A stretch of 64,000 bases of DNA. Source: Dysidea avara. Its lineage: Eukaryota > Porifera > Demospongiae > Dictyoceratida > Dysideidae. How positions within the stretch are numbered: position 1 is the stretch's first letter; each line of letters opens with the position of its first letter. Made by a program: the position numbers and the translations under genes. Where the stretch lies: assembly GCF_963678975.1 (NCBI RefSeq), contig NC_089277.1, positions 19,590,001 to 19,654,000 on the forward strand, in the 5' to 3' direction. A model generated the notes under the pieces. That model made no database searches. It had not been told where the DNA came from and saw nothing but the letters and a program-made list of their open reading frames with translations. Below, in pieces: positions 7,703 to 64,000 of this stretch.

Positions 7703-10120
7703 TTATGAAGATGAGGCAGCTTTTGATGGATCATCACATGGACTTGAGGAACTGTCACCTTTGAAAATCTCATCAGTATGGTGAGCGAGATTTCGCAGCA
7801 GGACACGAAGATCAAACCACCACTGTGACCCTGGCAGACGTTGCTTCAATTTAGCGGTTTCTTTGAGCACTTGAAGTGGTGTGAAACAGTAGCCATTTCC
7901 TGAAACGCCGACCATACATGCTGACTCAGGAGGTGAATCAACTCCAGTATCCACCTTGCCATCTTTGTAATATTTGTTGGCCAGCTCAACAATCTTCTCT
8001 GTAGCTTTGGATGAAATCTTAGCACCATAGATTCTGTCGTAAGGTGATGGGTTTCCACCTTGTTGCAAATGCCCAAGGATGCAACTTCGAGCCATGAGCA
8101 AACCTTCCCCTTCAGCTTGAAGCAAGTTCACCATGAAATCAGTGGAGAAGTATTCACTGCATTTCTCATTACGTAGCAGCAAACCACGCTCTATCCCACC
8201 CTTAAATTTCTTAATCAAGTGGTCAACATCTTCTTGCAGGTCTGCTACAGTAAAAGGTTTCTCATAGATGTAAGCTGTGTCTGCACCAGCAGCAAGTCCA
8301 CCCATAGTGGCCAGGTAACCACAGTATCCACCCTGTGTCTCTACAACAAATACTCTCTTGCGATTGGAGGCTGCAGATTGCTTAATAGTATCACAGGCAC
8401 TTACGATGGCATTTAGAGCTGTATCACTGCCTAAGCTGTAGTCAGAGCCAGGTACATTGTTACTGACTGTAGCTGGAGTGCCAAGAAGTGGTATCCTGAG
8501 TTGAGGATAATCCTTGCGTGCCTCCTCTAGTATGGTTAAAGCCTGGTATCCCTCAAAGCCACCGATCAGGTACAAGCCATCTATTTTGTGCTTCTCTAGG
8601 TTCTCAGCAATCTTTGGTAGCGTTTTCTTAGTAGGCAGAGTACGATTGGTGCACAACTTACAACCACCCATAGCACTCAAGCCATTCACATCAATCCACT
8701 CTACCTCCCTGATCTCATCCTTCTCTAGGCCCTCAAATCCATTATGGATACAAAGCACAGTGTGACCCTCATAAAGCAATAGGCGCACAAACGTACACAC
8801 GGCACTGTTCATACCACAAGCAGGTGCACCAACATTTATGACACCGAACCTGAATTTGGCACCTGTAGGATTGGATGGTGGACTAACTTGATTCAACTTC
8901 CTTAATATACTCAGGTTACTTTGGAAACTCCTGCCACGCAATTCTAGTGCTGTATCAAAATCCTTCTTTCCCATTGCTTTGTTGATATCTCCTGTCTTTG
9001 TTACCATGTCCATCAATTGAGCTCTCATTATCTTGTTGCTTTCTAATGTTATCAATACTGGGTCGATGCTTCCTTTCGCTTGAGCAATAGCTATTGCAGC
9101 TTCAGCACCCATTCTGCTCCCCAAGATTCGATCAAAGGCAGACGGGTTTCCACCTCTCTGAACATGTCCAAGAACAGTGATACGAACATCATGGCCATCT
9201 TTGTGGAGAATATCTTTGACCATTTGAGCTGTAATAGCTTCTCCTTGATCATCAATGGCTCCTTCGGCAACCATAACAAGGCCCATACGTCTTCCTTTCT
9301 TTCTGCCTTCCCTAAGTTCGTTGCACATTTTCTCTTCCCAGCCTTTCTTGGGTGGTTTCTCTGGTATTAGGACCCAGTCAGCAGCACCAGCAATACCAGC
9401 CATCAATGCAAGGTAGCCACAATGTCTACCCATGACCTCGATAACAAACGAGCGTTGATGGCTGTCAGCAGTATTCATGATACAATCAACAGCATCTATG
9501 ATGCGGTGTAAAGCTGAATCAGCTCCAATAGTCATATCAGTTCCATGCATGTCATTATCAATGGAGCCCACCATTCCAACAATATTCAAGTAGCTGTACT
9601 TCTCGAGAGCATCTTTAGGCACACGTTCCTTACTGATCAGTTCTTTAACTAAGCCACTCCACTCATCTTTGAAGATGCTCGCTCCAGTCAAGCTGCCATC
9701 ACCCCCAATTACAATGAGGTTATTGATGCCGGCTTTGATCATGTTTTCTGCTGCTGTTAGCCTTCCATCTCTCTCCCTAAACGCTTTACATCTCGCAGTC
9801 CCTAGTATGGTACCACCACGGTGCATTGTTCCAGACACATCCATCCATTTCAGTTCTTTAATCAACTTTTCTCCCTCAACCAAACCTTGGTAGCCCTCGT
9901 AGATGCCGTAAACTTTCATGCCGTTTAGTATGGCCATCCTTACAGAGGCTCTCACTGCGGCGTTCATTCCTTGTGCATCTCCACCGCTTGTGAAGATCCC
10001 GACACATCTTTGTTGTTCACCTTGAGAATCGCCTTTCGGCGCCACCACAGAACTAGCGTCACTTTCAGAAGTGTCCATAGAGGGGTCAACGTCCAATTTT
10101 GGCTTCTTTGCAACACTCAT
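7703..10120 (-). CDS. PFK: ATP-dependent 6-phosphofructokinase, intronless
   Basis: A single open frame of 805 residues encodes the cytosolic glycolytic enzyme that phosphorylates fructose 6-phosphate with ATP. It has the eukaryotic two-lobe (duplicated) architecture. N-lobe: GIFTSGGDAQGMN (about 41-53), GGDGSLTG (139-146), SIDNDMHGTD (186-195, catalytic Asp about 188), MGR (230-232) and GHVQRGG (318-324). C-lobe, normally the allosteric half: GAPACGMN (431-438), TPATVSNNVPGSD (548-560), ETQGGYCGY (594-602) and GHLQQGG (683-689). Length fits animal PFKs (about 780-820). I chose the ATG at 10120 (MSVAKKPKLD); the frame is open 14 codons further, but only to a GTG. A short N-terminal extension and a Ser-rich tail flank the core. 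All active-site motifs are intact, so the enzyme should work. The complete lack of introns is notable beside the nine-exon neighbour. Confidence 0.97.
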   Translation of the reverse strand: MSVAKKPKLDVDPSMDTSESDASSVVAPKGDSQGEQQRCVGIFTSGGDAQGMNAAVRASVRMAILNGMKVYGIYEGYQGLVEGEKLIKELKWMDVSGTMHRGGTILGTARCKAFRERDGRLTAAENMIKAGINNLIVIGGDGSLTGASIFKDEWSGLVKELISKERVPKDALEKYSYLNIVGMVGSIDNDMHGTDMTIGADSALHRIIDAVDCIMNTADSHQRSFVIEVMGRHCGYLALMAGIAGAADWVLIPEKPPKKGWEEKMCNELREGRKKGRRMGLVMVAEGAIDDQGEAITAQMVKDILHKDGHDVRITVLGHVQRGGNPSAFDRILGSRMGAEAAIAIAQAKGSIDPVLITLESNKIMRAQLMDMVTKTGDINKAMGKKDFDTALELRGRSFQSNLSILRKLNQVSPPSNPTGAKFRFGVINVGAPACGMNSAVCTFVRLLLYEGHTVLCIHNGFEGLEKDEIREVEWIDVNGLSAMGGCKLCTNRTLPTKKTLPKIAENLEKHKIDGLYLIGGFEGYQALTILEEARKDYPQLRIPLLGTPATVSNNVPGSDYSLGSDTALNAIVSACDTIKQSAASNRKRVFVVETQGGYCGYLATMGGLAAGADTAYIYEKPFTVADLQEDVDHLIKKFKGGIERGLLLRNEKCSEYFSTDFMVNLLQAEGEGLLMARSCILGHLQQGGNPSPYDRIYGAKISSKATEKIVELANKYYKDGKVDTGVDSPPESACMVGVSGNGYCFTPLQVLKETAKLKQRLPGSQWWFDLRVLLRNLAHHTDEIFKGDSSSSPCDDPSKAASSS

Positions 10121-10275
10121 CTCGCTTTGATCGTATTTATAGGGCTCCAAAATGGGATGCACGTGCGACCTCTAGAGGGCGTTATTTGGAATATATATGG
10201 GTAGCGCGCCATCCAGTGTGACAGGAACACGCCATGCTGGGAATGAAATAAGTCGTAAGTATTACACGTGACTGT
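10121..10275 (-). promoter_or_regulatory. Probable PFK promoter region
   Basis: The sequence just upstream of the PFK ATG contains an ATATATAT stretch (about 10190-10198), a GC-rich GTAGCGCGCCA block and a CACGTG E-box at 10265-10270. These are plausible core and upstream promoter elements, but the start site cannot be read from the sequence. Confidence 0.3.
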
Positions 10276-21536: not shown

Positions 21537-24110
21537 TAGTGTTGTAATAGTAATGTGTTCTAAATTTTGTTATTGTTGTTATTGTAGAGCTTCATGAAAT
21601 ACTTTTAGTTTTAGTTATTAATTGTTAACAGTGAAGCCAGCGGGTACAATTTAGTTATGGTTAAACGATTGCGTCTATCAATACAGCAGTACCCTGCTAT
21701 AGAAAAGGTGCGTTCTATTGGAGCACTAGATGCAGGTACTACCATTAAGTCTACTGCTAAGCGAAAAAGATTTGGTAATGTAGTTTCCAACTCTAACCAA
21801 AATGCAAGAGCATCTTTTTTACTGGGCATTGGTATGTTGAACCGCAATTCATAAAATCTCTCAATTTCACTTTCAGCAGTAGTTGCAGCTATACCTTTGT
21901 CAACCTGGTGTGCTTCTCGTAATCTTTGGCTTATGATACCGGATAAGTGACGAACATTCTTTAGAGGAGGTTGTTCATCACTATTTGCTACCACAGACAC
22001 AGTTTCTGTGCTTCCTGACTCAAGGGTGGTGTCAGTAAATTCTGATATTTCAGTTTTCAATGCAACTATAAGATGTGCCTTTACCACTGTGGTCTGTTGA
22101 TCATTCAAAATTAGCGTGTATTTTGGATCCAGAAATGTTGCAACTAAGTAATACACATCAAATCCAGCTGCAGAGGGATTCACATATTTATCAAAACGGC
22201 TTTTCAGCTCATTGTTCAACCTTTTTGATATGGTAGCCATTATTTTGTAGACATCTCTTCCAAGTGATACTGTAATTCTACTACAATAGGTACAACTGAT
22301 GATATAGTGGTATATTCTTCCCCACTACACAGAGTTGTGTATTCTGCAAAGGGTTGCAGCAATTCTTGAATATTTTCTAGAACTCTCCATTCGCTGTTCT
22401 GCAAACCATCCCAGCTGTGCTCATCAAGAACTTGTATAACAGAAGCCTTGACTGTTAAAAATCGATTAATCAGTAGATATGTAGAGCTCCACCTAGTTGG
22501 GCAATCTCCTAGTAGTTTTAAGCCAGCATTTGCAATCAGTTTTTCAGTTGCTTTTGTTGATTTGTTAAATTTGCTTACTATATTCTTGGCTTTTTTAATG
22601 GTGTGTCTAAATACACTACACTCAACAAATTTACTGACAACCAGTTGTAATGAATGGGCAAAGCAACTAAGCCTCCTATATCCAACAAATGCTATTTCAT
22701 GTTCAAATTCATTTTCATCGAACTCTCTTTCTTGTTCATACATGTCTTGTTGATGTGATTCTTCGATGGTTTTTTCCTGATCAGGTAAAGAATCATCTAA
22801 GCTGCCAGTGTCCAATACATCTACGTTATCTGTATCACACAATTCAAAATCTTCCTCATGATCACCTTCATTTTGCATATTTTCTTTTGTTGTAGCTGTA
22901 GAATTTTGAAAGCCTTCACCATGTTGCTCCCATTATCAGTTATTATGCTTCCAATCTTGTGATCAGGAATGTTCCAATCTTTGAAGATTTGCAAAACAAT
23001 CTTTAATACTTCCTCTCCTGTATGAGGGCTTGGCATGCGTTTCACTGCTAAAGTGACATTGTGACGCTTGTGACTGGCAAAGAAATGAGCAGTGACACCA
23101 ATAAAAGAAGCAGTCATTCCCTTCTTGCTCCATATGTCAGTACAAAAATTTACTTTTCTAGCTTGCAACATGTGGGACAAAATATTGCCTTTTAAATCTG
23201 TAAGCACTTCATCTATCTTCTTTGACATCATATACCTAGATGGAATAGAGTACCTACTGTCTAATTCTGTGATTAGTGAAGAGAAAGTTGGATCCTCAAC
23301 CAAGCTAATAGGGGCACTAGATGCTGCTAAAAATATAGATAACTTTTTTGTGATAGCCTTGCATTTAGGATCTTCATTGTTATACAGCTTGGGCCTCTTA
23401 AGAAAAGTAGTGATTTGTGGTTGATTACTTTCCATTGAAAAATTACAAGCAGCATTAGCTCTAGTACATGACTTCTTTTCATTTTCTTTCTCTTTGTTTT
23501 GCTTTTCCTTCTTAATTACTTCATCATAGGCTTCTCTATGTGATGACTTCAAATGCAACTTTAGCTAAATTTTCTTTTCCCTCACTTAGTCTTAGTTACT
23601 ACATTTGTTATAACCTCACATTTGCTCTTTTTAGCACTTTCATCATATAGCTGAAATAATCCCACACTGCATGGACTTGTTTTAGGTCTTCCAGTTACTG
23701 CTAGATCACTCATTGCCATCATTCAAAGTCAACTAGTTTTAGAGCTTAATTTACAAGTGAAATAGGTGGTTGGTAGCAAGTTATTTATGCCTTGGCTGAC
23801 CCATCCCATAGTACATCTGCTTGTTGTGTTGTTTACACCTTCACAGAACGCATGGTAGCTAACTCCACCTGGTTAGTTAATTGCATGCTTTTCATAGATA
23901 TATCCTATAATCATAAATACTACCAGGGGAAGTGACTTTAACCAGCTAATTGTCAAAGCAAATCCTTAATGTTACAAAAACTCTGTGACCATTATTGTTA
24001 TTGTTATTAATTGTTGCTGTTTAGTTATAGTTTTGTTATTGTTAACAATAAATTTTATCCCTTAAAAAAACTGGTTTTTGATATTGTTATTGTTAACAAT
24101 TACAACACTA
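21537..24110. mobile_element. hAT transposon, full length but inactive
   Basis: The terminal inverted repeats are TAGTGTTGTAAT at 21537 and its inverse ATTACAACACTA ending 24110. The flanks ATCAGAGT (21529-21536) and TTCAGAGT (24113-24120) look like an aged 8-bp duplication, offset by two bases on the right. TTGTTATTGTTAACAATAA-type subterminal repeats lie at the right end. The interior encodes a broken hAT transposase on the minus strand. Confidence 0.75.
21611..23735 (-). pseudogene. hAT-family transposase (BED finger, RNase H-like core, C-terminal dimerisation)
   Basis: Pieces in different minus-strand frames together cover a ZBED-like hAT transposase. From about 23735 down is a BED-finger region (around VWDYFSYMMKVLKRANV and LHLKSSHREAYDEV), broken by frame changes. 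23558-22905 carries the core start (FCTDIWSKKGMTASFIGVTA, IITDNGSNMVKAF). 22880-22240 carries LSCFAHSLQLVVSKF and CPTRWSSTYLL. 22240-21611 carries the hAT dimerisation motif (VPASSAPIERTFSIAGYC, RRNRLT). Frameshifts near 22915 and 22250 plus the broken BED region make it a pseudogene. Breaks could be as simple as single indels, so inactivation may be fairly recent. Confidence 0.88.
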
Positions 24111-32613: not shown

Positions 32614-32823
32614 TCACTTCTTTTTGTATTTGTATACTGCAAAGCCGGCCTATGGCTGGCTTTGGGGCTTTTTTAACCCATGTGTTTTTTTCTTTACCAC
32701 AGGAAGAAGAAAAGAACTTAAAGAAGAATTTTAGTACCTCAATTATTGTTGATTTTATTAGTAATTATACAAATTATATACATATATTTATTACATGCTC
32801 ATTATTCCCCACAGGATGTTTTT

Positions 32824-35800
32824 GCAGCTGATCTCTCTACTGGGTGACTTGAAATGTAGCTGAACTATATACAGGATGGTTTCTTTGTAGCTGAACTCTC
32901 TGTAACAGGTGATTTGTTTGCAGCTAAACTCTCTACATGGGGGTGTCTTTATAGCCGAACTCTCTACATGATGGTTTCTTTGTAGCTGAACTCTCTATAA
33001 GGTGACTTCGTCTAGCTGAACTCTCTACAGGGTGATTTTTTTGTAGCTGAACTCTCTGCAGGGTGATTTGTTTGCAGCTGAACTCTCTACATGATTGTTT
33101 CTTTGTAGCTGAACTCTCTACAATGTGACTTCGTCCAGTTGATCTCTCTACGGGGTGATTTGTTTCTAGCTGAACTCTCTACAGGTGAATTGTTTGCAGC
33201 TAAACTCTCTACATGCTGGTTTCTTTGTAGCTGAACTCTCTACAAGGTAACTTCTTCTCTACAGGGTGATTTGTTGTAGTTGAATTCTCTACTAGGTGGT
33301 TTGTATGAGGCTGAACTCTCTACATGGTGGTTTCTTTGTAGCTGAACTCTCTACAGAGTGATTTGTTTGCAGCTGAACTCTCTACATGATTGTTTCTTTG
33401 TAGCTGAACTCTCTACAAGGTGACTTCATCCAGTTGATCTCTCTACGGGGTGATTTGTTTCTAGCTGAACTCTCTACAGGTGAATTGTTTGCAGCTAAAC
33501 TCTCTACATGGTGGTTTCTTTGTAGCTGAACTCTCTACAAGGTAACTTCTTCTCTACAGGGTGATTTGTTGTAGTTGAATTCTCTACTAGGTGGTTTGTA
33601 TGAGGCTGAACTCTCTACATGGCGGTTTCTTTGTAGCTGAACTCTCTACAGAGTGATTTGTTTGCAGCTGAACTCTCTACATGATGGTTTCTTTGTAACT
33701 GAACACTCTACAAGGTGACTTCTTCTAGCATGATCTTTCTACAGGGTGAATTGTTGTAGCTGAACTATCTACAAGGTAACTTCTTCTAGCTGATCTCTAT
33801 ACAGGGTGATTTGTTTGTAGTTGAATTCTGTACAGGTGGTTTCTTTGTAGCTGAACTCTGTACATGATGGTTTCTTTGTAGCTAAACTCTTTACAAGGTG
33901 ACTTCTTCTAGCTGAACTCTCTACAGGGTAATTTCTTTGTAGCTGAACTCTCTATATGATGGTTTCTTTGTAAATGAACTCTCTACAAGGTGAATTTTTC
34001 TACCTGATCTCTCTACAGGGTGATTTGTTTGTAACTGAACTCTGTACAAGTGCGTTTTTGTGGGTGATCTCACTGCAGGTTGATTTGTTTGTAGCTGAAC
34101 TCACTAAAGGGTGATTTTGCTTGTAGCTGAACTCCTTGCATTGTATCTAGTTTCTAGCTGATCTCTCTACAGGGTGATTTGTTTGTAGCTGATCTCTCTA
34201 CAAGTTGATTTGTGTGTAGCTGATCTCTCTGCAGGTTGATTAATTTGCAGCCAATCTCTCTACAAGGTAATTTGTTTGTAGCTGAACTGTCTATAAAGTG
34301 ATTTATTTGTAGCTGATCTCTCTGCAGGTTGATTTGTTTTAGCTGAACTCTATACAGGGTGATTTACTTGTAGCTGAACTCCTTACATTGTGTGTAGTTT
34401 CTAGTTGATCTCTCTACAGGGTGATTTGTTTGTAGCTGATCTCTCTACAAGTTGATTTGTGTGTAGCTGATCTTTCTACAGGTTGATTTGTTTGTAGCCC
34501 ATCTCTCTACAGGGTAATTTGTTTGTAGCTGAACTCTGTACAAGGTGCTTTTTTGTAGGTGATCTCACTGCAGGTTGATTTGTTTGTAGCTGAACTCACT
34601 AAAGGGTGATTTGCTTGTAGCTGAACTCCTTACATTGTGTCTAGTTTCTAGCTGATCTCTCTACAGGGTGATTTGTTTGTAGCTGAACTCTCTATAAGGT
34701 GATTTGTTTGCAGCTGAACTATCTACATGGTGGTTTCTTTGTTGCTGAACTCTCTACAGGGTGTTTTGCTTGTAGCTGAACTCTCTACAGGGTGATTTGT
34801 TTCTAGCTTATCTCTCTACAGGTTGATTTGTGTGTAACTGATCTCTCTACAAGCTGATTTGTTTGCAGCTGAATTCTCTGCAAAGTGTTTTGTTTGTAGC
34901 TGACCTCTCTTCAGGGTGATTTGTTTCTAGCTGATCTCTCTACAGGGTGATTTTTTGTAGCTGACCTCTCTTCAGGGTGATTTGTTTCTAGCTGATTGCT
35001 CTGCAGGTTGATTTGCTTGTAGATGAACTCTCTACAGGGTAACTTGCTTGTAGCTGAACTCCTTACTTTGTGTCTAGTTTGTAGCTGATCTCTCTACAGG
35101 GTGATTTGTTTGTAGCTGAACTCCTTACATTGTGTGTAGTTTCTAGCTGATCTCTCTACAGGGTGATTTGTTTGTAGCTGATCTCTATACAAGTTGATGT
35201 GTGTGTAGCTGATCTCTCTGCAGGTTGATTAATTTGCAGCCGATCTCTCTACAAGGTAATTTGTTTGTAGCTGAACTGTCTATAAAGTGATTTATTTGTA
35301 GCTGATCTCTCTGCAGGTTGATTTGTTTTAGCTGAACTCTCTACAGGGTGATTCACTTGTAGCTGAACTCCTTACATTGTGACTAGTTTCTAGCTGATCT
35401 CTCTACAGGGTGATTTGTTTGTAGCTGATCTCTCTACAAGTTGATTTGTGTGTAGCTGATCTTTCTACAGGTTGATTTGTTTGTAGCCGATCCCTCTACA
35501 GGGTAATTTGTTTGTAGCTGAACTCTGTACAAGGTGCTTTTTTGTAGGTGATCTCACTGCAGGTTGATTTGTTTGTAGCTGAACTCACTAAAGGGCGATT
35601 TGCTTGTAGCTGAACTCCTTAAATTGTGTCCAGTTTCTAGCTGATCTCTCTACAGAGTGATTTGTTTGTAGCTGAACTCTCTATAAGGTGATTTATTTGT
35701 AGCTGAACTCCTTACATTGTGTGTAGTTTCTAGCTGATCTCTCTACAGGGTGATTTGTTTGTAATTGATCTCTCTACAAGTTGATTTGTGTGTAGGTGAT

Positions 35801-37040
35801 CTCTCTGCAGGTTGATTTGTTTGTAGCCGATCTCTCTATAGGGTAATTTGTTTGTAGCTGAACTCTCTATAAGGTGATTTGTTTGTAGTTGATCTCTCTG
35901 CAGGTTGATTTGTTTTAGCTGAACTCTCTACAGGCTGATTTGTTTGTAGCCGATCTCTCTACAGGGTAATTTGTTTGTAGCTGAACTCTCTACAAGTTGA
36001 TTTGTTTGTAGCCTATCTCTCTACAGGGCAATTTGTTTGTAGCTGATCTTTCTACAGGGTGATTTTTTTGTAGCTGACCTCTCTTCAGGGTGATTTGTTT
36101 CTAGCTGATCTCTCTACAGGGTGATTTTTTGTAGCTGACCTCTCTTCAGGGTGATTTGTTTCTAGCTGATTGCTCTACAGGTTGATTTGTTTGTAGATGA
36201 ACTCTCTACAGGGTAATTTGCTTGTAGCTGAACTCCTTACTTTGTGTCTAGTTTGTAGCTGATCTCTCTACAGGGTGATTTGTTTGTATATAGCTGATCT
36301 CTCTGCAGGTTGATTTGTTTGTAGCCGATCTCTCTACAGGTAATCTGTTTGTAGCTGAACTCTCTATAAGGTGATTTGTTTGTAGCTGATCTCTCTGCAG
36401 GTTGATTTGTTTTAGCTGAACTCTCTACAGGGTGATTGCTTGTAGCTGAACTCCTTACATTGTGTCTAGTTTCTAGCTGATGTCTCTACAGGGTGATTTT
36501 TTGTAGCTGAACTCTCTATAAGGTGATTTGTTTGTAGCTGATCTCTCTGCAGGTTGATTTGTTTTAGCTGAACTCTCTACAGGGTGATTGCTTGTAGCTG
36601 AACTCCTTACATTGTGTCTAGTTTCTAGCTGATGTCTCTACAGGGTGATTTTTTGTAGCTGAACTCTCTTCAGGGTGGTTTGTTTCTAGCTGATCTCTCT
36701 ACAGGTAGATTTGTGTTTATTTGTTCATTGCTGATCGCTCTAAAGGTAATTGATTTGTTGCAGTTGAACACCCTGCAAAGTGTTTTGTTTGTAGCTGATC
36801 ACTCTAAAGGGTAATTTGTTTGTAGCTGAACTCTCTCCACAGTGACTTGTGTGTAGCAGAATTCTGTGTAACTGAATTCTCTAGAGAGTGACTTAATTGT
36901 AGCTGAATTCTCTACACAGTGCATGACTTGTTTATAGCTGAACTTTCTTCAGTGTGACTTGTAATGTTCTGAATCTCTATAGTGGTATATTTGCTTAACT
37001 CTCCGCATGGTGACTGTCTTCTTGCTGAACTCCCTACAGA
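32824..37040 (+). repeat. Minisatellite array A, about 31-bp unit
   Basis: Well over 100 tandem units have the consensus AGCTGAACTCTCTACAGGG plus TGATTTGTTTGT. Variants include ACTTCTTCTAG, ATGGTGGTTTCTTTGTAG and CAAGTTGATTTGTGTG. Multi-unit blocks recur (for example around 33060-33400 and 33420-33660, and several blocks in 34300-36600), showing higher-order amplification. The unit is not a multiple of three and no ORF survives. Confidence 0.95.
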
Positions 37041-41200: not shown

Positions 41201-41277
41201 AAATAACTCACAGTAGTGGCCGCGCGTTTTAATTGTGGCGTGCGCTTTGTAGTTTCTTGGCCGCGCGACTCACTACC

Positions 41278-43494
41278 TAGTAGAGCAGCATAGCTAGCAA
41301 AAATGAGCAAATTGTGCACTTTTTGAAGAAAGTATGAAACTTTGCACATAGTTTCTACAGACCATGAAGAGTTTTTTAAGATATGCATGGAGCCAATGCA
41401 GATTTGACCTTTGGTGACCTTAACAATCACTTTTGTGTGTAAAACATTGTATTTCTGCAATTAAACTACATAACATTAAATCTAAACTACCTAAATGGGA
41501 TGCCAAATGAAAGCTCTTACTTTAAGGAATACACTGGTACTTGAATCAAGTTCATACCACAATTTGGTAGAAAGTTATAACTGATTAAAGTTAAAATTAC
41601 CTGACTCAGTGTAAAATTATTATATACAACAGGGATGTAAGAATATATCTACGCTTCATATATTTGTATTGTAGATAAAGCAGCCCTTATAGGAAGCTGA
41701 TTTACTTTTACCAAGGAGTTCATAGCTAGTAGAAAGGAAGACTCTTGTTATAGCTATCACATAAATAAGTTAAGTATCAAGTAAACAAATTTGCTTGTCA
41801 TGTCATGTTGTGCTGTCATGTCATGTTGTGGCTACATGACAAGTATGCAAATTAATTTTCAGCAGCTATGACAAATGCACCTGTTGTGGATGCTAACTTA
41901 TTTGATGGTGCTGCCGTTGTACAGATGCTGAATCCTGGAACAGTGAAAACCTTTCAAGAATATGCTGACAAAGTGTTTTTGCCTTATGTATTTCAACAGC
42001 TGTCAATAGCCCAGAGAACCGCGCATTAGCGCGAGCCCGGCTGGGCACGAGTAGAGAGTGGATGTTGTTTGGGATAAATACATTGTAAATAGTTTAAAAG
42101 ATGTGACCAGACCAAAGAGAGGCAAAGGAATTCGAAGAAGAGTAGCTTCTACCACTCATCTCCCTAAAAACTGGAGAGACTTTCTTCGGGTGAACGAGAA
42201 CAAAGCAGAATTATTACAACTTTTTGTCACAACAAATTGCAAGTGTTACAACTGATGAGGGAAAGGTGATCTATGCAACTAATGGGAAGATTTTTTCTGA
42301 GCACAAAATTGATGTTGATGTGACAGAGCTTTCCCCCTGCTCACACGAAGAAGCAGATACACGTCTTCTACTGCATGCAAGAGATGCTGTACATGTGCAG
42401 AAAGGATACAGAAGATTGTGTATATGTACTGTAGATACAGATGTTGTAGTCCTGGAAATCGCTATGTTTAGTCAGATTAATCCGGATGAGCTGTGGTTAG
42501 CACTTGGTATTGAATTACATTTCAGGTATATGCCAATTCATGAAATTGTCAGGGGATTGGATCCAGTGATGTGCAAAACTTTGCCAGTTTTTCATGCATT
42601 TACTGGATGTGACACAGTTTCAGCATTTGGAGGACGAGGGAAAAAGACAGCCTGGAGTGTGTGGAAAGTATTTCCTGATGTCACTGAAGCATTTGAAGAC
42701 CTCATCCTCGTGGAAGACAACATTAGTGACTTGTCCTTGTCATTATTGGAGCGATTTGTAATGCTGCTGTATGATCATACCAGTGATCTTCTAACAGTCA
42801 ATGATGCCAGGAAACAGTTATTTACACAGAAGTCAAGAAGCCTGGAGAACATACCACCAACACAAGCAGCACTCAAGCAACACATTAAGAGGGCAAGCTA
42901 CCAAGCACATTGCTGGAGAATGGCAGTAATTCTGATTCCAGAACTCCTTAGTCCAGCAGAATGGGGGTGGTGGAAGGATGCTACAGGGTGGCATCCACTA
43001 TGGACCACACTCCCAGAAGCTTCACAATGTCGTCATGAACTAATACGCTGTGCATGCAAGAAAGGGTGCACTGCAAGGTGCAAATGTGTCAAGGCTGTTT
43101 TAAAGTGCACTCTACTCTGCTCTTGCTCTGGGGAATGTGAAAGACATGCAGATATAGTTAATTTCATGTATATTTGATAAAAATTTTAATCAAATGTTTA
43201 AATTGTTATAACTTGAGAACAGAATAAGGTATGAGCTTAATTCAAGCACCAGTGTATTCCTTAAAGCAAGAGCTTGCATTTGGTATCCCATTAAGGTAGT
43301 TTTGATTAAAATTTATGTACTATAATTGCAGAAATACAATATTTTGTACACAAATGTGATCATAAAGGTCACCAAAGGTCAAATCTTCGATGGCTCCATA
43401 TCCAAAATAACTCTTCATAATCTGTTGAAACTATGTACAAAATTTCATACTTTCTTCAAAAAGTGCACAATATCTCGGCTATGCCGCTCTACTA
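41278..43494. mobile_element. 2.2-kb transposon with long TIRs, 3-bp duplication, nuclease-like gene
   Basis: The inverted arms are about 330 bp: 41278-41610 (TAGTAGAGCAGCATAGC, TTGTGCACTTTTTGAAGAAA) against 43180-43494. The flank ACC is duplicated (41275-41277, 43495-43497), and removal restores a perfect hairpin, which confirms the boundaries. The arms are roughly 80% identical by eye. The only gene is the broken PIN/FEN-like frame. A 3-bp duplication with an XPG-type nuclease recalls the Academ superfamily; that assignment is inferred. Confidence 0.75.
41868..43177 (+). pseudogene. PIN/FEN-like nuclease with cysteine-rich tail, broken
   Basis: Three blocks read one protein. 41868-42017 gives DANLFDGAAVVQMLNPGTVK and ADKVFLPYVFQQL. 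42058-42220 gives VDVVWDKYIVNSLKDVTRPK and RGKGIRRRV. 42224-43177 gives 317 open codons with SCHEEADTR-type acidic residues (41-47), TVDTDVVVL (69-77), FHAFTGCDTVSAFGGRGKKT and a C-terminal Cys cluster (CACKKGCTARCKC.., CTLLCSCSGEC). The spaced acidic motifs resemble the metal-binding site of PIN/FEN/XPG nucleases. The family is a common uncharacterised one in invertebrate genomes. Breaks: a 35-bp insertion with AGAGA duplicated (42018-42057) adding a stop, and a one-base shift in a T-run near 42222. An acceptor-like TTTTCAG at 41862 suggests a missing 5' exon. Fold assignment is inferred from motifs only. Confidence 0.7.
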
Positions 43495-43835
43495 ACCGTG
43501 AGTCTTGATATAATAATTATACAACCAAGTACAGTGTATTTCCGGTTGGTTGACTAGAGAAACGAAGTGTTAAAAGTTACATGCTTGAAAGTAGCCAATG
43601 AGATCGGTAGCCTTCAGTTTAAACTAGCGCCGTCCGCCTGGCGTGAAATTTCATTGGTTATTTCTATTCACGTGATATTTTGCATTTGGCTTACGTGGAC
43701 AACCAAGACTGTACTAAGAATAATACGAAACGCGGTTAAAATTACGTCATTAATAATGAAATAAATAAATAATGTTTGAGAAAACTACAAGGCCTAAGGC
43801 TTCGCACTCACCGGGAATAGAATCCATGTTGTATG

Positions 43836-44248
43836 TAGTCTCGCGGCGCCCGACCCTAAAAAGAGGGTCTGGTGAATCTCCGTACAAAAAGTTTGAGCTC
43901 TGGAATGTTTATTGGATGACGTTTTATGTGTACGTAAGTGCACTGTTTACGTCACAACATTCATTTAACCAGATCCACTTACAGCTTCACCAAACTAACA
44001 GCGCTACTTTATTTATTCAACATTAAAACGAACCCACCAGAATTGTATGGCTGTTTTCTCAATGGGTTTAAGCGGCAGAGTCACCGGATGTAATTAACCA
44101 TTAGCCGCGAATCTTTTGAAATGTACGCATTACATAATCAATTTGAAATAGAGCGATCTGATTGGAGCTTCCAGCATTCCGGCAGCGCCAAACTTTTTGT
44201 ACACAGTTTCACCAGACCCTCTTTTTAGGGTCGGGCGCCGCGAGACTA
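43836..44248. mobile_element. 413-bp MULE-like MITE, 9-bp duplication
   Basis: TAGTCTCGCGGCGCCCGACC (continuing CTAAAAAGAGGGTCTGGTGAA) is inverted at the right end, an arm of about 45 bp. The flank TGTTGTATG is duplicated exactly (43827-43835, 44249-44257). A 9-bp duplication points to Mutator-like elements. No transposase. Confidence 0.85.
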
Positions 44249-46085: not shown

Positions 46086-47119
46086 GATTGATCTTAGTTT
46101 CGTGCGCTCCAAAGAAGACTTCCAGAGCTCCCAAATTCTGAGTGTGATATCAAGTGTTGTTGGTCTGCCAAACCATGTATAGAAGTGAGTAAAACTTTTC
46201 CTGTGCTTTCCACAAAGGCTAATTTTCTGCTGATGGTCCAATCCTATCACATAAGATGGTAATGAAGTTGGATGCATAAGTATTCTACACACCAAGTTTG
46301 AAAGAGCTGCGATCTTTCTAACCATCTGGCTAGCAGAGATGAAATTTTCAGTGCAATGATCTTCAATGATTTTGGTGGATTTCCTCCTTCCTTCTGTTAC
46401 AAACTGTCTTCCTAGGAGCTTTAAATCAGGGGGAGATCCAGAAGAACACCTGAGATTTCTAAGAAGTGGTCAAATCCTTGATTTTTAAAGTTAAAAGGCC
46501 ATTGGAAGCTACTACTCTAATATAACATTCAGTATTCTATTGATCTAATAGAATACTGTTCTATTAGAACAACCATGTAGTCACTACATTTAACATCTGC
46601 TTTTGGTTGTGTCAATCAGCGTTGAAACCGGGTCGGGTCATCTGGGTCATCCAGGTCAACTGGGTCACATTTTCTCCGGGTCATCCGGGTCTGACCCGGT
46701 TTACAAATTATCCGGGTCTGACCCGGATTGGATCACGTGAGACACAAAATTGTTTGTTTGGCGACGTGGAAACTTATAAACACTATCGCATAGCTCTTTC
46801 GTGAGCCACGCCCACTTATTGCGCTACCAACATATGTTCAGCCTGAGGGGTAGCTATTTTTAGTAGGTGATGACCTTTTTTTTTTTTTTTTTTTAAATTT
46901 AATTTAATTATTTTTATTTTTGGTCTTCAACCTACAGCTAGGCTGAAGTTGCAATATTTACTCAACACGAATTGAATGCTCAAAACGTAGTCTCGTTCGC
47001 TCGCTCGAGACTAGCTGAAACATAGCTCTTATCGCATACCTCGGCTTTAATTAATCCGGGTCAAATCCGGGTCAGCAGTAGTGACCCGGTTTCAACGCTG
47101 GTGTCATTTGAACAGCTGT
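46086..47119. repeat. Left arm of a large inverted repeat
   Basis: From GATTGATCTTAGTTTC to TTGAACAGCTGT this matches, inverted, 49729-50308, apart from the inserted hAT MITE 46617-47100. Blocks include CTTTAAATCAGGGGGAGATC and CACCTGAGATTTCTAAGAAG. Both arms keep an open frame (ISASQMVRKIAALSNLVCRI, LPSYVIG in the right arm, plus sense), and the opposite strand keeps PELPNSECDIKCC in both. Whether either is coding is unclear. Confidence 0.8.
46617..47100. mobile_element. 484-bp hAT MITE, CAGCGTTGAAACCGGGTC ends
   Basis: CAGCGTTGAAACCGGGTC and its inverse are the ends. The flanks GTGTCAAT (46609-46616) and GTGTCATT (47101-47108) are an 8-bp duplication with one change. The right arm of the surrounding inverted repeat keeps the empty site (GTGTCAATTGAACAGCTGT on its minus strand). 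The interior has tandem CCGGGTC/GACCCGG words and a T-run. Confidence 0.9.
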
Positions 47120-49728
47120 ATAGATTGCTTGGAAAGTGTACATTTTATGGACATTTAAATCTTGATAATTATTTTAAGATGAAAGCAATGCAGATGCTGG
47201 AGAGTCTAATAGTATTTGAAATCCATTCATTTGCTATAAAGTAATCATTTTGTATCAGCTGGAGCACTCTATTGCAGGACCAGCTCAGGTAACCTCACAT
47301 TTTACATACCTGGTTTTCTATATACAAAAATTAACAATAATAATTATTATGTATCTTGTGCAACTGCCTAAACAAATAACAACTCAGTAATGCAGGTACA
47401 GCCATGATACCCTAATGCTGCTGTGTATATGGCCTATGAGTTTGTGAAATTATTAATTCATGACTAAGATAGAAGTAATGCTTCACAGTTTTATCTGTCA
47501 ATGTGATCGTTCTATTAGAGTAGTTTATTACTTTATAGGTGTATAGTAGACCAATAGATTACACACGATTTTCCTTTTTATTATGTTTTGCACAGGTAGT
47601 GAAAATACGGCAGGGAACCACAAGGCCATGGTCCCCCAGTTTTGGTGGTCAATTCTTGTAGCAAAAGATCAATGTACTCTTAATCATTCTAATAGAGCAA
47701 TCACAACTGTTAGTAGCTGCTTAATTTTTAAAGTGAAAATAGTCACCCAAAGTACTGTCTTAGAACCCTAAGACATGCATCCAGATGGAATCTGTGTTTG
47801 TATAGGCTAATCAAAGCAGAACTTTTTAACATTCAATTGCAAGTACTTGATAATTAAATGTAAGGAGATGTGCGTGGTTGAATAATTCCTTGAACATGTT
47901 AGTGCATTTTATTGTACAAAGAATACATTTAACCTGTTGTATTGATTTCTGCTTGTCACAGGTCCATATGCATTGGACTGCTCTGTGTAACAACACCCAT
48001 TCAAAACAACAAACTTATCTTGAAAATACTCATCAATCTGCAATGTAATAATGCCAAATTTCTGTTCATCTAGATCTATTAATTTGTATCTTTACCTATG
48101 TCATTGTTTCCTTAACCATATCAATGATTGTTTGTTCCATTGATTGTTGAGTACAGCTGTAAGAAGCTGTTGTCAAAGTTAATAAATGCATGGCTAGAGC
48201 AGACTAAAAAGCATTACAAATCATTGGGGGTATCAATTCAGCTAACTAGTTTGTAAAGAAATAATTGGCTATAAGCTTGCAAAGTATTTTGAGTATTGAT
48301 GGATGAGAAACTGATGATTGAGTTTATGTGACCTAATTTATTTAAGCGTGTGGTTATGCACCTGTATGATTTGTTTGTCTGCCATGGATATTGTACCCGC
48401 ATGCTAGGTCACTTCAAGAACAAATTGTGTGATTAGCTAGTCTATTACATTACACACATGTAGTTTACAGTAGATCAATGTACAAGTATATATGGTACGC
48501 CTCACTATATAGCTTAATAGGATGCAAAATGGATGCAGGAGCTGGAATGAGAAATGAAAGACCCGGCAGTTTGTCTACTTCCTGAGCACAATGCAACTAC
48601 TGAATATAGATAATTACTATAGAGTTAATTATGAAGGAGTCATTGCATTGATAAACATGCTTACTTATGCTCATAATTATAAATTTAGTATGTGCATATT
48701 GTGCTACACTTGAAAGTTGTTAACACAACTTTATGGTAAACAGTCTATTCGGCAGAGAAGTGGGGGCAAGGGGGCTGTAGCCCCTGTGAAAAATGGGGGC
48801 TTAGCTCCCCTAAAATTATCTGTAGCTGTGATGGAGAGCCTAGCTCAATAGTATCAATAATAATTTGAGATACTATAATAGAGCAGTCAAGATTGAAATA
48901 CTCTAATAGAGCAATCACAGTATTCTTAGAGGAGCAGTGTAGCAAGCTACGCATGTAGTTATAAATAAGGATTTTTTTGGTCTTCAACTTACAGCTAGAC
49001 CATGGCATCATCAATCTAGAAACCAACCCCCTCCCCCCCCTTTAATAAAGGTGTCTCGTCCGCCCTTGCTATTCCTGCATTAAAATCATACTGCCAATCA
49101 TTCCATGAACTATCATTAGATTGACAGCTATCATGGACAATTCAGTTTTGGTGACTACTTTCCAAAGTAATGTGAGTGAGATGATGAGTGTGCAACATAG
49201 AACACAGGGAAGTGCAACACTTAGAGTGTGCTGGTCCTAGCATGAGATCAACTACATGGCAGGGGTCTGAGATTCCATCCTAGAAGACTTTTGTGCTTTA
49301 ACACCTTGATCGAGAGTACTGATGACATAAATTAACACTGTGCAACTTTTAAAGTATGTACCACATTGTTTCAAATGAAACTATAGCTAGATGCATTCCT
49401 ACAATTATAACTAAGTGTGTTTGGATAAAAATGTAACTACGCATTATGTCAACAATTAGTGAAAACTAGCAGCGGTTCTATCGTCATGTACATTGCAGGA
49501 TGTATGGAAGACTACTTTACTTGTACAAAATACCCAACCACATTGCATAAGGATGTAAAGTGTACAATATGTACCTCAAACATTGCAGATTATACATAGT
49601 TGTGTTCTTCAGTGTGATTTAAAGCTATAGCCTTTGTCCCATGCAAACATTGAAGAAGTTGCTAACTAGCTAGGTTATCATTATTGACATAATTACTGTG
49701 CAACTTTTATTAACTAAGTAACTAGTTC
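47120..49728. other. Interior between inverted arms, no gene recognised
   Basis: AT-rich with no ORF over 95 codons. It contains the CTCTATTAGAG repeat copy at 48745-49045 and scattered single motifs (47511, 47684). A MITE-like end (GATGAGAAACTGATGATTGA..GTGACCTAA) occurs near 48302. Confidence 0.4.
48745..49045 (-). repeat. Repeat with CTCTATTAGAG core, copy 3
   Basis: Read on the minus strand it shows the same ordered blocks as 24535-24830: CTGTAAGTTGAAGACC, an A-run, CCTTATTTATAACTA, GTAGCTTGCTACACTGCTCC, then two TGCTCTATTAGAGTAT-type motifs and a GGGGGC/GCCCCC-rich terminal hairpin. Confidence 0.6.
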
Positions 49729-50308
49729 ACAGCTGTTCAATTGACACAACCAATAGTAGATGGCAAATGTAGTGACTATACATGGTTATTCTAATAGATT
49801 ACTGAATGTTCTAATAGAATACTGAATGTTCTATTAGAGTAGTAGCTTCCAATGGCCTTTTAACTTTAAAAGTCAAGGATTTGACCACTTCTTAGAAATC
49901 TCAGGTGTTCTTCTGGATCTCCCCCTGATTTAAAGCTCCTAGGAAGACAGTTTGTAACAGAAGGAAGGAGGAAACCCACCAAAATCATTGAAGATCATTG
50001 CACTGAAAATTTCATCTCTGCTAGCCAGATGGTTAGAAAGATCGCAGCTCTTTCAAACTTGGTGTGTAGAATACTTATACATCCAACTTCATTACCATCT
50101 TATGTGATAGGATTGGCTTCTCTTCTCTTGGCTAGTAAGCACCTCGAATGAAAATTGTTTTCTATCCATCAGCAGAAAATCAGCCTTTGTGGAAAACACA
50201 GGCAAAGTTTTACTCACTTCTATACATGGTTTGGTACAACACTTGATATCACACTCAGAATTTGGGAGCTCTGGACATCCTTTGGAACACATGAAACTAA
50301 GATCAATC
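49729..50308. repeat. Right arm of the large inverted repeat
   Basis: Inverse of 46086-47119 without the hAT MITE. It has about 50-60 extra bases (around 50117-50165, CTTCTCTTCTCTTGGCTAGT) compared with the left arm. With the left arm it could be the TIR of a 4.2-kb element or two inverted copies of one repeat. Confidence 0.75.
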
Positions 50309-55571: not shown

Positions 55572-58500
55572 TATCTAATCCAAAACAGCCATGCTGTATA
55601 AAAAGTGTGCGGCCCTCAAAAAGGCTATGGTGAAAAAAGATGTGAAATCCAAGGTGGCGGCCAAGAAATGGCTGTGATGGTAGGTTAATGGTAAAATTTT
55701 AATAATGGCAATTCAGGTGAATTTTTGTGCCGCTTGGTCTTGGCACAAAATTCACCTGAATTGTCATTATTAAAATTTTTACCATTAACCTACCATCACA
55801 GCCACTTTTTTTACAGCATGGCTGTTTTGGATTAGATTTCATTTCTTTTGGTATTTGTATACCCCAAAGCCGGCCTATGGCCAGCTTTGGGACTTTTTAA
55901 CCTATCTTTTTTCTTTACCACAGGAAGAAGAAAAGATGAAGTAGATGTACTTTAAATATTTTATCAGTAAATGTACAAATTATATATGTATATATAATAC
56001 ATAATCATTTATATTGATTACAGAAATCTCCATGGTGGTTTCTTTGTAACTGAACACTCTACAAGGTGACTTCTTCTAATTGCTCTCCCTAGAGGGTGAA
56101 TTGTTTGTAGCTAAACGATCTACAAGGTAACTTCTTCTAGCTGATCTCTCTACAGGGTGATTTGTTTGTATCTGAATTCTGTACAGGTGATTTGTTTGCA
56201 GCTGAGCTCTATACAGAATGGTTTCTTTGTTGCTGAACTCTCTAAAAGGTAACTTCTTCTAACTGATCATTCTACAGGGCAATTTGTTTGTGGCTGAATT
56301 TTCTACAGGGTGATTTCTTTGCAGCTGAACTCTCTACATGGTGGTTTCTTTTGTAGCTGAACTCTTTACTAGGTAATTTCTTCTAGCTGATCTCTCTACA
56401 GGGAGATTTATTTGTAGCTAATTATCTACAAGGTAACTTATTCTAGTTGATCACTCTACAGAGTGATTTGTTCGTAGCTGAATTCTGTACAGGTGATTTG
56501 TTTGCAGCTGAGCTCTTTACAAAATGGTTTCTTTGTAGTTGAACTCTCTACAAGGTAACTTCTTCTAACTGATCTTTCTACAGGGTGATTTGTTTGTAGC
56601 TGAACTATCTACAAGGTAATTTCTTCTAGCTGATCTCTCTACAGGGTGATTTGTTTGTAGCTGAATTCTGTACAGGTGATTTGTTTGCAGCTGAGCTCTT
56701 TACAGAATGGTTTCTTTGTACCTGAACTCTCTACAAGGTAAATTTTCTAGCTGATGTCTCTACAAGGTCACTAGCTTGTAGCTGAACTCTCTACATGGTG
56801 GTTTCTTTGTAACTGAACTCTCTACAAGGTAACTTCTTCTAGCTGATCTTTCTACAGGGTGATTTGTTTGTAGCTGAACTCTCTACAAGGTAACTTCTTC
56901 TAGCTGATCTCTCTACAGGGAGATTTGTTTGTAGCTGAACTCTCCACAGGTGATTTGTTTGAAGCTGAACTCTCTAAATGATGGTTTCTTTGTAGCTGAA
57001 CTCTCTACAAGGTGACTTCTTCTAGCTGATCTCTCTACAGGGTGATTTGTTTGTAGCTGAATTCTCTACATGGTGGTTTCTTTGTAACTGAACTCTCTAC
57101 AAGGTAACTTCTTCTAGCTGATGTTTCTACAGGGTGATTTGTTTGTAGCTGAATTCTGTATAGGTGATTTGTTTGCAGCTGAGCTCTTTAAAGAATGGTT
57201 TCTTTGTAGCTGAACTCTCTACAAGGTAACTTCTTCTAGCTGATGTCTCTACAAGGTCACTAGTTTGTAGCTGAGCTCTCTACATGGTCGTTTCTTTGTA
57301 ACTGAACTCTCTACAAGGTGACTTCTTCTAGTTGATCTTTCTACAGGGTGATTTATTTGAAGCTGAACTCTCTACATGATGGTTTCTTTGTAGCTGAACT
57401 CTCTACAAGGTAACTTCTTCTAGCTAAGCTCTCTACAGGGAGATTTGTTTGTAGCTGAACTCTCTACATGATGGTTTCTTTGTAGCTGAACTCTCTGCAA
57501 GGTAACTTCTTCTATTGATCTCTCTACAGAGCGATTTGTTTGTAACTGAAATCTCTACATAGTGGTTTCTTTGTAGCTGAACTCTACAAGGTGATTTCTT
57601 CTAGTTGAACTATCTCTTTCCATAGTTGGATGAACTCCCTACAAGGTAACATCTTCTAGCTGATCTCTCTACAGAGTGACTTGTGTGTAGCTGATCTCTA
57701 TACAGGTTTCTTGTTTCTAACTGATCTCTTGAATTCTCTTCAGGGTGACTGCTCTATTAGGATGACTGCTCTATTAGAGTATCTCGATCTCGCACTTGCT
57801 GCACCAAGTTGGATTTCGTGTTATAACTCCGTGGCTTTAAGTCTGATTCTTCTACACCATTGATGAGCCTTTTTAAGATGATTACTCCATCTGTACAACG
57901 ATTTTCAAAGCATTACCCCAAGCGGTTTACCTGGTAGGCGTGGCAAGCAGTCGTTTTTTTTTAATTACCTAATCTCGATTGCGTAATTGTTATAAATTAA
58001 ATTAGGTTTAACTTCTAGCTAGAGATCGGGGAGGATGGGAGTGCCATTAGGGCCGGAATAATAATAATAAAACAATAATTGTTACACACTGTTGGTTTTT
58101 TCGTTGTATCTTACTGTTTTTTAGCTCGATTTCTTTCAAACCACAAAAGGTTTGAGGTTCAATAGTTAACCTATTCACCCACCGATTTTCAGCTTCTTCC
58201 CATACGCGGTTTACCCTGTAGGCGTGACAACATATTGGTGTTATTTTTCGTGAATAATCGCTCATAACTCTTTGCCTGTTTATCGTATTCCAGCCAAAGT
58301 TGGTACCGAGATGCGCCTTTATATCCCCCTTCTGTGTGCCAAATTTCAAGGTAATCGGATGTGGCGTTCACGTTTTATAGCAGTTTTTGTAAGTGTGCGA
58401 CGAGAAAAAGAAAAATAAGAAGAAAAAACCGAAGAAACTGAGCCAATTTTTGAAGTCGCATATCTCGGGAACGCGTGAAGCGATTTCGCTCAAATTTGGA

Positions 58501-61794: not shown

Positions 61795-64000
61795 TATCAA
61801 GACACACGGTAGTGTGTCGTGCGGTCCAAGAAGCCGGCGCGCCACAGCCGTGAGTATATTGACAGGAAGAACGAAAACGTCATTTTCACACCATTTTATC
61901 TCGGTGATCACTTATCCGATTGGAACCAACTTTGCTACACAGTTGCCCGCCAGCCAGGGGAGTCTACATTCCAAATTTGAAGGAAATAGCTCCGACCATT
62001 TCCGAGATACGAGCCGCCAAAGTTTCGTTTTTTTTTCTTCTTCTTCGTCTTTTCGCACACTTGCAAAAATTGCTATAACAAGCAAACGCGTACTCTGATC
62101 GCCTTGACATTTGGCACACAGAAAGGGAGTCCAATGGCGAATCCTAGCATCAAATTTGGTACAAATCCGATCAATAGTTCAGGAGTTATGACCGATTATT
62201 CGCGTAAAACAAGATCTATTTGTTGTCACGCCTACAGGGTAAACCGCTTCATGGAATGAGTTGAAAATTGCTATGTAGATGGAGTAACCATCGTAGGGGT
62301 GCCTTTTGGTGGTTTAAAAGGAATCGAGATAAAGACCATGGAGATATGACACAAAATCCAACCTGTGTCACAATTACGCGATCGATTTTTATGAATGAAA
62401 GAAGTATTAGTTTTCACACCTACTAGGCAAACCGCTTAGAGCAATGAGCTGAAAATCGGTGTATAGCTGGAATAATCTTCATAGAAAGGCCTTGCAGTAG
62501 TACAGAAGAATCGGATTACAAACCACTGAGTCAGGATTCGAAAGCCAACTACGTGTTGCAAATGCGAGATCGAGATACTCTAATAGAACAGTCACCCTAA
62601 TAGAGCATTCGGCTAATTTATTTACTCCATTATAGAATTTTATTACATCACAAGTTATTCTGTAGGGAGTTCAGCTGCAAACAGTTAATCTTATAGACAG
62701 TTCAGCAAGAAGCAAGTCACCATGTGGAGAATTAAGCAAATATGTCACTATAGAGATTCAGAACATTACAAGTCACACTGAAGAAAGTTCAGCTATAAAC
62801 AAGTCATGCACTCTGTAGAGAATTGAGCTACAATTAAGTCACTCTCTAGAGAATTCAGCTACACAGAATTCAGCTACACACAAGTCACTGTGGAGAGAGT
62901 TCAGCTACAAACAAATTACCCTGTGGAGAGATCGGCTACAAACAAATCAACCTGCAGAGAGATCAGCTACACACAAATCAACTTGTAGAGAGATCAGCTA
63001 CAAACAAATCACCCTGTAGAGAGATCAGCTACAAACTAGACACAATGTAAGGAGTTCAGCTACAAGCAAATTACCCTGTAGAGAGTTCATCTACAAACAA
63101 ATCAACCTGTAGAGCAATCAGCTAGAAACAAATCACCCTGAAGAGAGGTCAGCTACAAAAAATCACCCTGTAGAAAGATCAGGACAGCTAGAAACAAATC
63201 ACCCTGAAGAGAGGTCAGCTACAAAAAATCACCCTGTAGAGAGATCAGCTAGAAACAAATCACCCTGAAGAGAGGTCAGCTATAAACAAAACACTTTGCA
63301 GAGAGTTCAGCTACAAACAAATCAACTTTAGAGTGATCAGCAACAAACAAATCAACTTGTAGAGAGATCAGCTAGAAACAAATCAACCTGCAGAGAGATC
63401 AGCTACAAACAAATCAACTTGTAGAGAGATCAGTTACACACAAATCAACCTGTAGAGAGATAAGCTAGAAACAAATCACCCTGTAGAGAGATCAGCTAGA
63501 AACTAGACACAATGCAAGGAGTTCAACTACAAGCAAATCACCCATTTAGTCAGTTCAGCTACAAACAAATCAACCTGCAGTGAGATCACCCACAAAAACG
63601 CACCTTGTACAGAGTTCAGTTACAAACAAATTACCCTGTAGAGAGATCAGGTAGAAGAATTCACCTTGTAGAGAGTTCAGCAACAAAGAAACCACCATGT
63701 AGAGAGTTCAGCTGCAAACAAATCACCCAGTAGAAAGATCAGCTAGAAGAAGTTACCTTGTAGAGAGTTCGGTTACAAAGAAACCATCATATAGAGAGTT
63801 CAGCTACAAAGAAATTACCCCGTAGAGAGTTCAGCTAGAAGAAGTCACCTTGTAAAGAGTTCAGCTACAAAGAAACCATCATGTAGAGAGTTCAGCTACA
63901 AAGAAACCACCATGTAGAGTGTTTAGCTGCAAAAAATCACCTGTAGAGAGTTCAGCTAGAAGAGATCACCTTGTAGAGAGTTCAGCTACAAAGAAACCAC
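61795..64000 (-). mobile_element. Minisatellite-bearing composite element, copy C (inverted, runs off window)
   Basis: On the plus strand it starts TATCAAGACACACGGTAGTG, the inverse of the copy A/B terminus, followed by the conserved module (to about 62650) and an array of about 31-bp units (62655 to the end) in reverse orientation. The module is very close to copy A (the GTTTGCGTGTTATAGCAATT-type and CAATATACTCACGG stretches are nearly identical). The foldback head would lie beyond the window. Confidence 0.75.
62655..64000 (-). repeat. Minisatellite array C, about 31-bp unit
   Basis: Reverse-orientation units (GAGAGTTCAGCTACAAAGAA, GAGAGATCAGCTACAAACAA) equal the inverse of arrays A and B. 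The array continues to the window edge. Confidence 0.95.

Follow-up and report, generated by a model that had tools for sequence, protein, structure and literature searches.

The locus at positions 41278 to 43494 of the window raises the question of what kind of mobile element carries a candidate nuclease as its only visible gene, and what part such a protein would play in its movement. The window is the whole stretch of 64,000 nucleotides of the Dysidea avara genome that was analysed. In the first-pass annotation this locus was described as a DNA transposon with inverted arms of about 330 bp, an ACC duplication and one gene, the product of which was supposed to be the nuclease subunit of a possibly Academ-related element. 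Self-matching and gapped alignment show that the inverted arms are indeed present and flanked on both sides by ACC, although at 312 and 298 bp they are slightly shorter than described. The features of the element are the following.

41275..41277, no strand: left copy of the 3-bp target duplication ACC, read from the sequence
41278..43494, plus strand: whole element, 2,217 bp, a non-autonomous deletion derivative, delimited by its terminal inverted repeats (TIRs), target-site duplication (TSD) and coding relic
41278..41589, plus strand: left TIR, about 312 bp, from self-match and gapped alignment
41278..41293, plus strand: left terminal motif TAGTAGAGCAGCATAG, from comparison of copy ends
41314..41319, plus strand: left subterminal GTGCAC block, starting at base 37 from the end, behind a 20-bp spacer
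43197..43494, minus strand: right TIR, about 298 bp, from self-match and gapped alignment
43463..43468, minus strand: right subterminal GTGCAC block, starting at base 27 from the end, behind a 10-bp spacer
43479..43494, minus strand: right terminal motif TAGTAGAGCGGCATAG, from comparison of copy ends
43495..43497, no strand: right copy of the target duplication ACC, read from the sequence

The two TIRs are 81% identical over 312 columns of the gapped alignment, with a core of 248 columns at 86% (self-match E 2.7e-71). With a slash at each end of the element, the junctions read ctACC/TAGTAGAGC ... GCTCTACTA/ACCgtg. The ACC duplication is no chance 3-bp match, because seven further copies in the genome with the same or related termini also have 3-bp duplications. 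The empty insertion site of the window copy (41267-41277 joined to 43495-43504) is a near-perfect palindrome, GACTCAC-TACC-GTGAGTC; a palindrome of this quality is seen at 166 of the 61,401 positions in the window. The idea that the palindrome forms an outer part of the TIRs was dropped, since other copies terminate at TAGT and are then followed by their TSDs.

The surroundings of the element hold features of other kinds. The adjoining stretch 43836-44248 is a MITE-like unit with 60-bp inverted arms (95%) that lie 293 bp apart, and in it positions 44186-44240 weakly match the TIR model described below (E 0.0035). A long inverted repeat of about 4 kb at 46238-50116, with 304-bp arms that are 99% complementary, more matching arms outside it and a longest listed frame of 135 aa, is taken for a different element. 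At 46617-47100 there is a small unit with 18-bp perfect inverted ends, CAGCGTTGAAACCGGGTC. Diverged arrays of units of about 31 bp on both strands occupy 32800-36700, 56000-57500 and 62660-64000. On the minus strand, 7706-10171 is an uninterrupted frame of 822 aa which we take to be a phosphofructokinase, and three overlapping frames at 21614-23564 presumably are a broken hAT transposase.

A search of the host genome (550.8 Mb in 108 contigs) gave at least 127 matches to the nuclease block at E<=0.001, which is a lower bound because 122 of the 882 candidates were scored. Thirty loci (L002-L031, with L002 being the window copy), three full regions (L032-L034) and ten shorter ones (L035-L044) were studied; L032 and L019 are one copy, as are L034 and L009. 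All eight copies that could be read at both ends have a 3-bp TSD directly outside their TAGT...ACTA termini: ACC in L002, GTG in L003, ATG in L005, TAT in L013 and L014, CTG in L032 and L034, and TGT in L033. A TIR model matched beside the gene in 28 of the 30 loci L002-L031 at E<=0.01, as the first-pass annotation would have it for other copies of the gene, and gave no match there at this threshold in L007 and L026. The model was built with the ends of 12 of the 30 loci and matches 16 of the 18 outside its own input, one of which, L009, is the L034 copy, whose ends are in the model. The matches in L023, L027 and L028 stop short of the terminus, and those in L024 (E 2.4e-4), L027 (E 7.8e-4) and L028 (E 6.8e-6) are weak. 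Outside the 30-locus count, the TIR model also matches L039 at its positions 235-310 (E 1.4e-5), next to another copy of the nuclease. The TIRs and the 3-bp TSDs of the eight readable copies thus bear out the reading as a DNA transposon, and mobility would account for the abundance of the gene in this genome, as had been suggested. Two distant members, L043 and L044, are 30% and 28% identical to L033 and keep the acidic sites that they cover; the family in the host genome is therefore deeper than the lineages studied.

Three relatives are complete from TIR to TIR, with lengths of 5,439 bp (L032), 5,374 bp (L033) and 5,669 bp (L034). Single stop-to-stop frames of 1,524 aa and 1,479 aa run through L032 and L033, respectively, and the frame of L034 is broken into pieces of 324, 238 and 813 aa. 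Visual inspection divides the protein into two N-terminal Cys/His modules, a middle part that carries conserved acidic motifs, the nuclease block and a tail rich in Cys. DNLD and DQxHEQNN occur in each of the three proteins; FDxPL and GGLHIEM are found in L032 and L033 only, and are missing from L034 because it has no frame there. Judged from the conserved acidic motifs and from the TIR and TSD behaviour, the middle part is probably a DDE transposase. Pfam gave no match to the L032 protein and one weak, unrelated match to that of L033 (Pox_D5, E 0.44, under its cut-off), and NCBIfam and PADLOC gave none to the full-length proteins. The nuclease is thus not the separate subunit that had been proposed: since L032 and L033 carry it in one frame with the transposase-like region, it is the C-terminal domain of a fused protein, and the second transposase gene that was thought worth searching for is not needed.

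The L032 protein served as reference for what is left of the gene in the window.

41856..42017, plus strand: coding relic 1, residues about 1108-1161 of the L032 protein (tblastn)
41904..41906, plus strand: first nuclease Asp (FDGAA), in coding relic 1
42013..42052, no strand, approximate coordinates: about 40 bp within the coding relic that have no counterpart in the closest copies, L003 and L013
42055..42225, plus strand: coding relic 2, in another frame, residues about 1158-1217 (tblastn)
42073..42075, plus strand: second nuclease Asp (VVWD), in coding relic 2
42194..43177, plus strand: main open frame, 327 aa, with the remaining nuclease domain and the Cys-rich tail
42350..42358, 42434..42442 and 42611..42613, plus strand: acidic sites HEEAD, DTD and GCD in the main frame

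The main frame is the single gene described before, with HEEADTR, TVDTDVVVL and the Cys-rich tail, and its 327 aa compare with a longest open frame of 197 aa in 500 dinucleotide shuffles of the element. The coding relic (41805-43144) exceeds this open frame and is split over three frames; its start is given by the match of relic 1 to L034, which begins at 41805. The approximately 40 bp at 42013-42052 are read as an insertion. A splice acceptor ahead of the first relic was considered and dropped, as L032 and L033 are open across that region. By tblastn the relic corresponds to residues 1108-1521 of the L032 protein only, with nothing upstream, and there are no other matches of the full-length proteins in the window at E<=0.01. 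The window copy, which had passed for a complete one-gene element, is instead a decayed, frame-broken derivative that arose by internal deletion and retains residues of about 1108-1521. L003 and L013 are 97.2% and 97.7% identical to it and share its overall structure, but their TSDs differ; the window-type deleted form has therefore moved at least three times. Other deletion forms occur as well: L005 and L004 retain residues 11-87 and 1161-1521, and L014 is a scrambled form in which the nuclease is kept.

The identity of the nuclease block was examined with an alignment of 19 rows (first row 420 aa), which are partly non-independent, L033 and L035 being 99% identical. When columns filled in 12 or more rows are considered, acidic residues make up 95% or more in only seven, in the order D-D-E-D-D-D-D. 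The residue is acidic in 14 of 14 and 15 of 15 of the rows that have a letter and, for the other five columns, in all 19 of 19; the last column has one E in place of D. Their spacings of 43, 89, 2, 24, 2 and 61 compare with 48, 72, 2, 19, 2 and 52 in EXO1, in the same order. The EXO1 counterparts are D30, D78, E150, D152, D171, D173 and D225, which we take to be its metal-site residues; a literature search for these residues gave no result. Alignment with hhalign to a six-sequence FEN/EXO1 profile scored 35.1 (P 7e-4 as a single comparison) over 43 columns in the GCD region, against 12.1 for the reversed profile and at most 26.7 in 59 column shuffles; in global mode nothing useful was aligned. 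Four archaeal FENs gave a score of 22.4, compared with 17.2 in reverse and no more than 19.8 in 39 shuffles. The GCD...GxGK region is placed in register with EXO1/FEN by both HMMER and hhalign. At the level of sequence, the signature of seven acids upholds the earlier description as PIN/FEN-like, in that it is of the FEN/XPG/EXO1 type. A FEN/EXO1-type active site is strongly indicated, and the block very probably belongs to the FEN/EXO1 type.

The opposite reading, that the block is no PIN/FEN nuclease and that its acids belong to some other metal-dependent or structural domain, is consistent with the outcome of the family-library and PDB sequence searches, which gave no significant nuclease match. 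Pfam had no match to the nuclease at E<=10, and NCBIfam, PHROGs and PADLOC gave weak unrelated matches or none. The window sequence by itself did not match FEN in the catalytic region and found nothing relevant in the PDB. When the profile was searched against the PDB, EXO1 appeared at E 1.6, with GCD on GCD, behind four unrelated entries, of which the top one was the unrelated GTPase HflX (E 0.022). However, a match of seven acids out of seven with EXO1, in order and at near-equal spacing, and the register found by two programs speak against this reading, which is very unlikely. An AlphaFold model from a single sequence (pLDDT 33) was useless for the fold. In 100,000 shuffles a motif pattern occurred 459 times in its loose, 9 times in its middle and 0 times in its strict form; these counts carry no weight, because the pattern was written after the sequence had been seen and its strict form also misses an archaeal FEN1 piece. 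No relatives were found in the contigs of other genomes, where the one pattern match (L001) was judged by eye to be due to chance, in an unrelated bacterial frame. There were none in viral contigs either (pattern matches of 1 and 17 stretches, 0 relatives by tblastn), and phages and plasmids gave one insignificant match each.

Whether short copies still use the nuclease was considered from substitution ratios. Among the window copy, L003 and L013, Ka/Ks is 0.68-1.07 (bare ratios, without a significance test). Between lineages the bare ratios are 0.20 for L032/L025 and 0.14 for L021/L031, the latter pair with synonymous sites near saturation. For close pairs of the full-length type no purifying selection is visible (0.89 for L032/L018, 2.34 for L011/L012). 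L033 and L035 differ by six non-synonymous and zero synonymous changes. Of the 21 pairs compared, the close ones outside the window group, L032/L018 and L011/L012 among them, gave 0.5-2.3 on few changes, and L033/L037 gave no ratio. These values suggest long-term selection on the nuclease as the lineages diverged, and drift in recent copies, including the window group. The nuclease-only element could also be regarded as a self-standing mobile unit that still uses its gene, in view of the at least three insertions represented by the window copy, L003 and L013 (97-98% identical; ACC, GTG and TAT) and the retention of the nuclease in two other deletion forms, L005/L004 and L014. Yet retention in short copies is not evidence of use, because all copies were found with the nuclease as query, which amounts to an ascertainment effect. 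Ka/Ks near 1, stops or frameshifts in the nuclease-only copies and the existence of fused full-length relatives likewise argue against such a unit, which is highly improbable. The derivation of the window copy from a fused, full-length element is preferred.

The ends of the elements share an arrangement in which each TIR begins with a 16-bp motif, followed by a spacer and a block starting with GTGCAC (GTGGAC in L033). In all eight elements the block starts at base 27 on one end and at base 37 on the other (26 and 36 in L033). The long end lies 5' of the gene in L002, L003, L005, L013 and L032 and 3' of it in L014, L033 and L034, so that each element has one short and one long end although the long side differs between lineages; the switch of side would be accounted for by an inversion of the stretch between the TIRs. 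Twenty-seven 3' ends were tabulated. The pattern finds the block in 25 of them, 13 at base 27, 12 at 36-37 and 0 elsewhere; this count of 25 includes two duplicates (L019 of L032 and L009 of L034). By eye, L021 and L031 have GTGCAT at 37 and 36. The count leaves out L023, L027 and L028 (no terminus matched), L024 (weak match) and L007 and L026 (no TIR). We consider the 27/37 spacing of GTGCAC a new observation, resembling the 12/23 rule and the P elements; a literature search, with the main Academ paper outside it, found no report of spacer asymmetry for Academ.

The spacing could reflect a 10/20 rule, in which pairing needs one 10-bp and one 20-bp end, and this would be a further, separate case of helical-turn asymmetry besides RAG/Transib and P elements. 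Such a rule, which was recognised post hoc and in some five related lineages, has a little less than an even chance of being correct. The asymmetry of 10 bp may instead be an ancestral inheritance without function, for copies within a lineage are non-independent and the lineages share an ancestor; this explanation is plausible enough to be kept in mind, if somewhat short of probable. Against simple inheritance, the spacer sequences have largely diverged between lineages (identities of 2/9 to 6/10 for the short and 3/19 to 10/20 for the long spacer, with the pair L014/L034 excluded) but have kept lengths of 9-10 and 19-20. The long side moreover varies by lineage, and still there is always one short and one long end. 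The 10/20 rule is carried forward as a tentative part of the mechanism below.

AcademX elements encode a nuclease, of the XPG type, and not a helicase. According to the excerpts of PMC10045372, AcademX has TSDs of 3-4 bp and AcademH of 9-10 bp, and these lengths are connected with the helicase and nuclease encoded by the two groups; the excerpts of PMC10294476 give an average of 5,565 bp for curated bivalve Academ elements. The 3-bp TSD of the eight readable copies falls within the AcademX range, a nuclease is present, and the three complete elements (5,374-5,669 bp) are close to the bivalve mean given there. A transposase-like region with acidic motifs occurs together with the nuclease in the same element (L032, L033). 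The 10/20 spacer asymmetry, in contrast, is absent from the descriptions in the excerpts of PMC10045372 and PMC10294476. AcademX is most likely the best filing, matched by published description. With good confidence, the window element is accordingly taken for a decayed and non-autonomous member of a family of cut-and-paste DNA transposons that is most likely of the AcademX kind. We write 'most likely AcademX' rather than 'is AcademX' because the likeness lies in the features compared with the published descriptions. The early suggestion that the element is possibly Academ-related holds in so far as its nuclease and the length of its TSD agree with what the excerpts of PMC10045372 say of AcademX. 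Another DDE superfamily, related but not Academ, that independently joined a FEN/EXO1-type nuclease would agree with the absence of any library family matching the full-length proteins at its cut-off, and AcademX is known here by description, its sequences lying outside the comparison. The agreement of TSD length, nuclease and element length with the excerpted AcademX/Academ descriptions speaks for the AcademX filing and makes another superfamily rather unlikely. Literature searches on Academ with XPG, with other superfamilies and with spacers gave nothing useful, as did one on PIN-domain papers, with the paper that defines AcademH and AcademX outside the search.

In view of the above, a mechanism can be considered in which the protein binds the terminal motif and the GTGCAC block, presumably with its N-terminal Cys/His part. 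The difference between the 10- and 20-bp spacers would let one short end pair with one long end, a step for which we see nearly, though not quite, even chances. The DDE region would cut the transferred strands and join them to the target with a stagger of 3 bp. Cutting or trimming of the other strand at the 5' ends may fall to the nuclease domain; this is conceivable but somewhat doubtful. The window copy would very likely have been moved in trans by a full-length relative.

If these assignments are correct, a protein family that stays below every Pfam cut-off would be tied to mobile DNA, and a testable active site would be placed on the C-terminal part of its protein. It also becomes directly testable what the nuclease does and how it bears on TSD length. 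A true 10/20 rule would add another system in which to ask why helical-turn asymmetry arises at recombination signals, a question that has been taken up in RAG, P elements and other systems.

Among known systems, the block resembles the 5' nucleases EXO1, FEN1 and XPG in its acids and in having GCD followed by a G-x-G-K region. Unlike them, it is joined in one protein to a transposase-like region and a tail rich in Cys, and its likeness outside the motifs is under ordinary detection. In Tn7, strand cleavage is shared between TnsB and TnsA, the latter being a nuclease of the restriction type and a protein of its own. The proposed split between a nuclease and a DDE transposase would be analogous, whereas the nuclease found here is fused and a candidate of the FEN/EXO1 type. 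With respect to the ends, Transib is grouped with RAG for its helical-turn asymmetry. The RAG/V(D)J signals have 12- and 23-bp spacers and the P elements 9- and 21-bp spacers that have been compared with them (excerpt of PMC7776569). The elements described here share with RAG/V(D)J the combination of one short and one long signal, about one helical turn apart; their signal sequences and protein are different, and the pairing is a candidate drawn from sequence. P elements differ in a spacer difference of 12 bp instead of 10 bp, an 8-bp TSD and a different protein.
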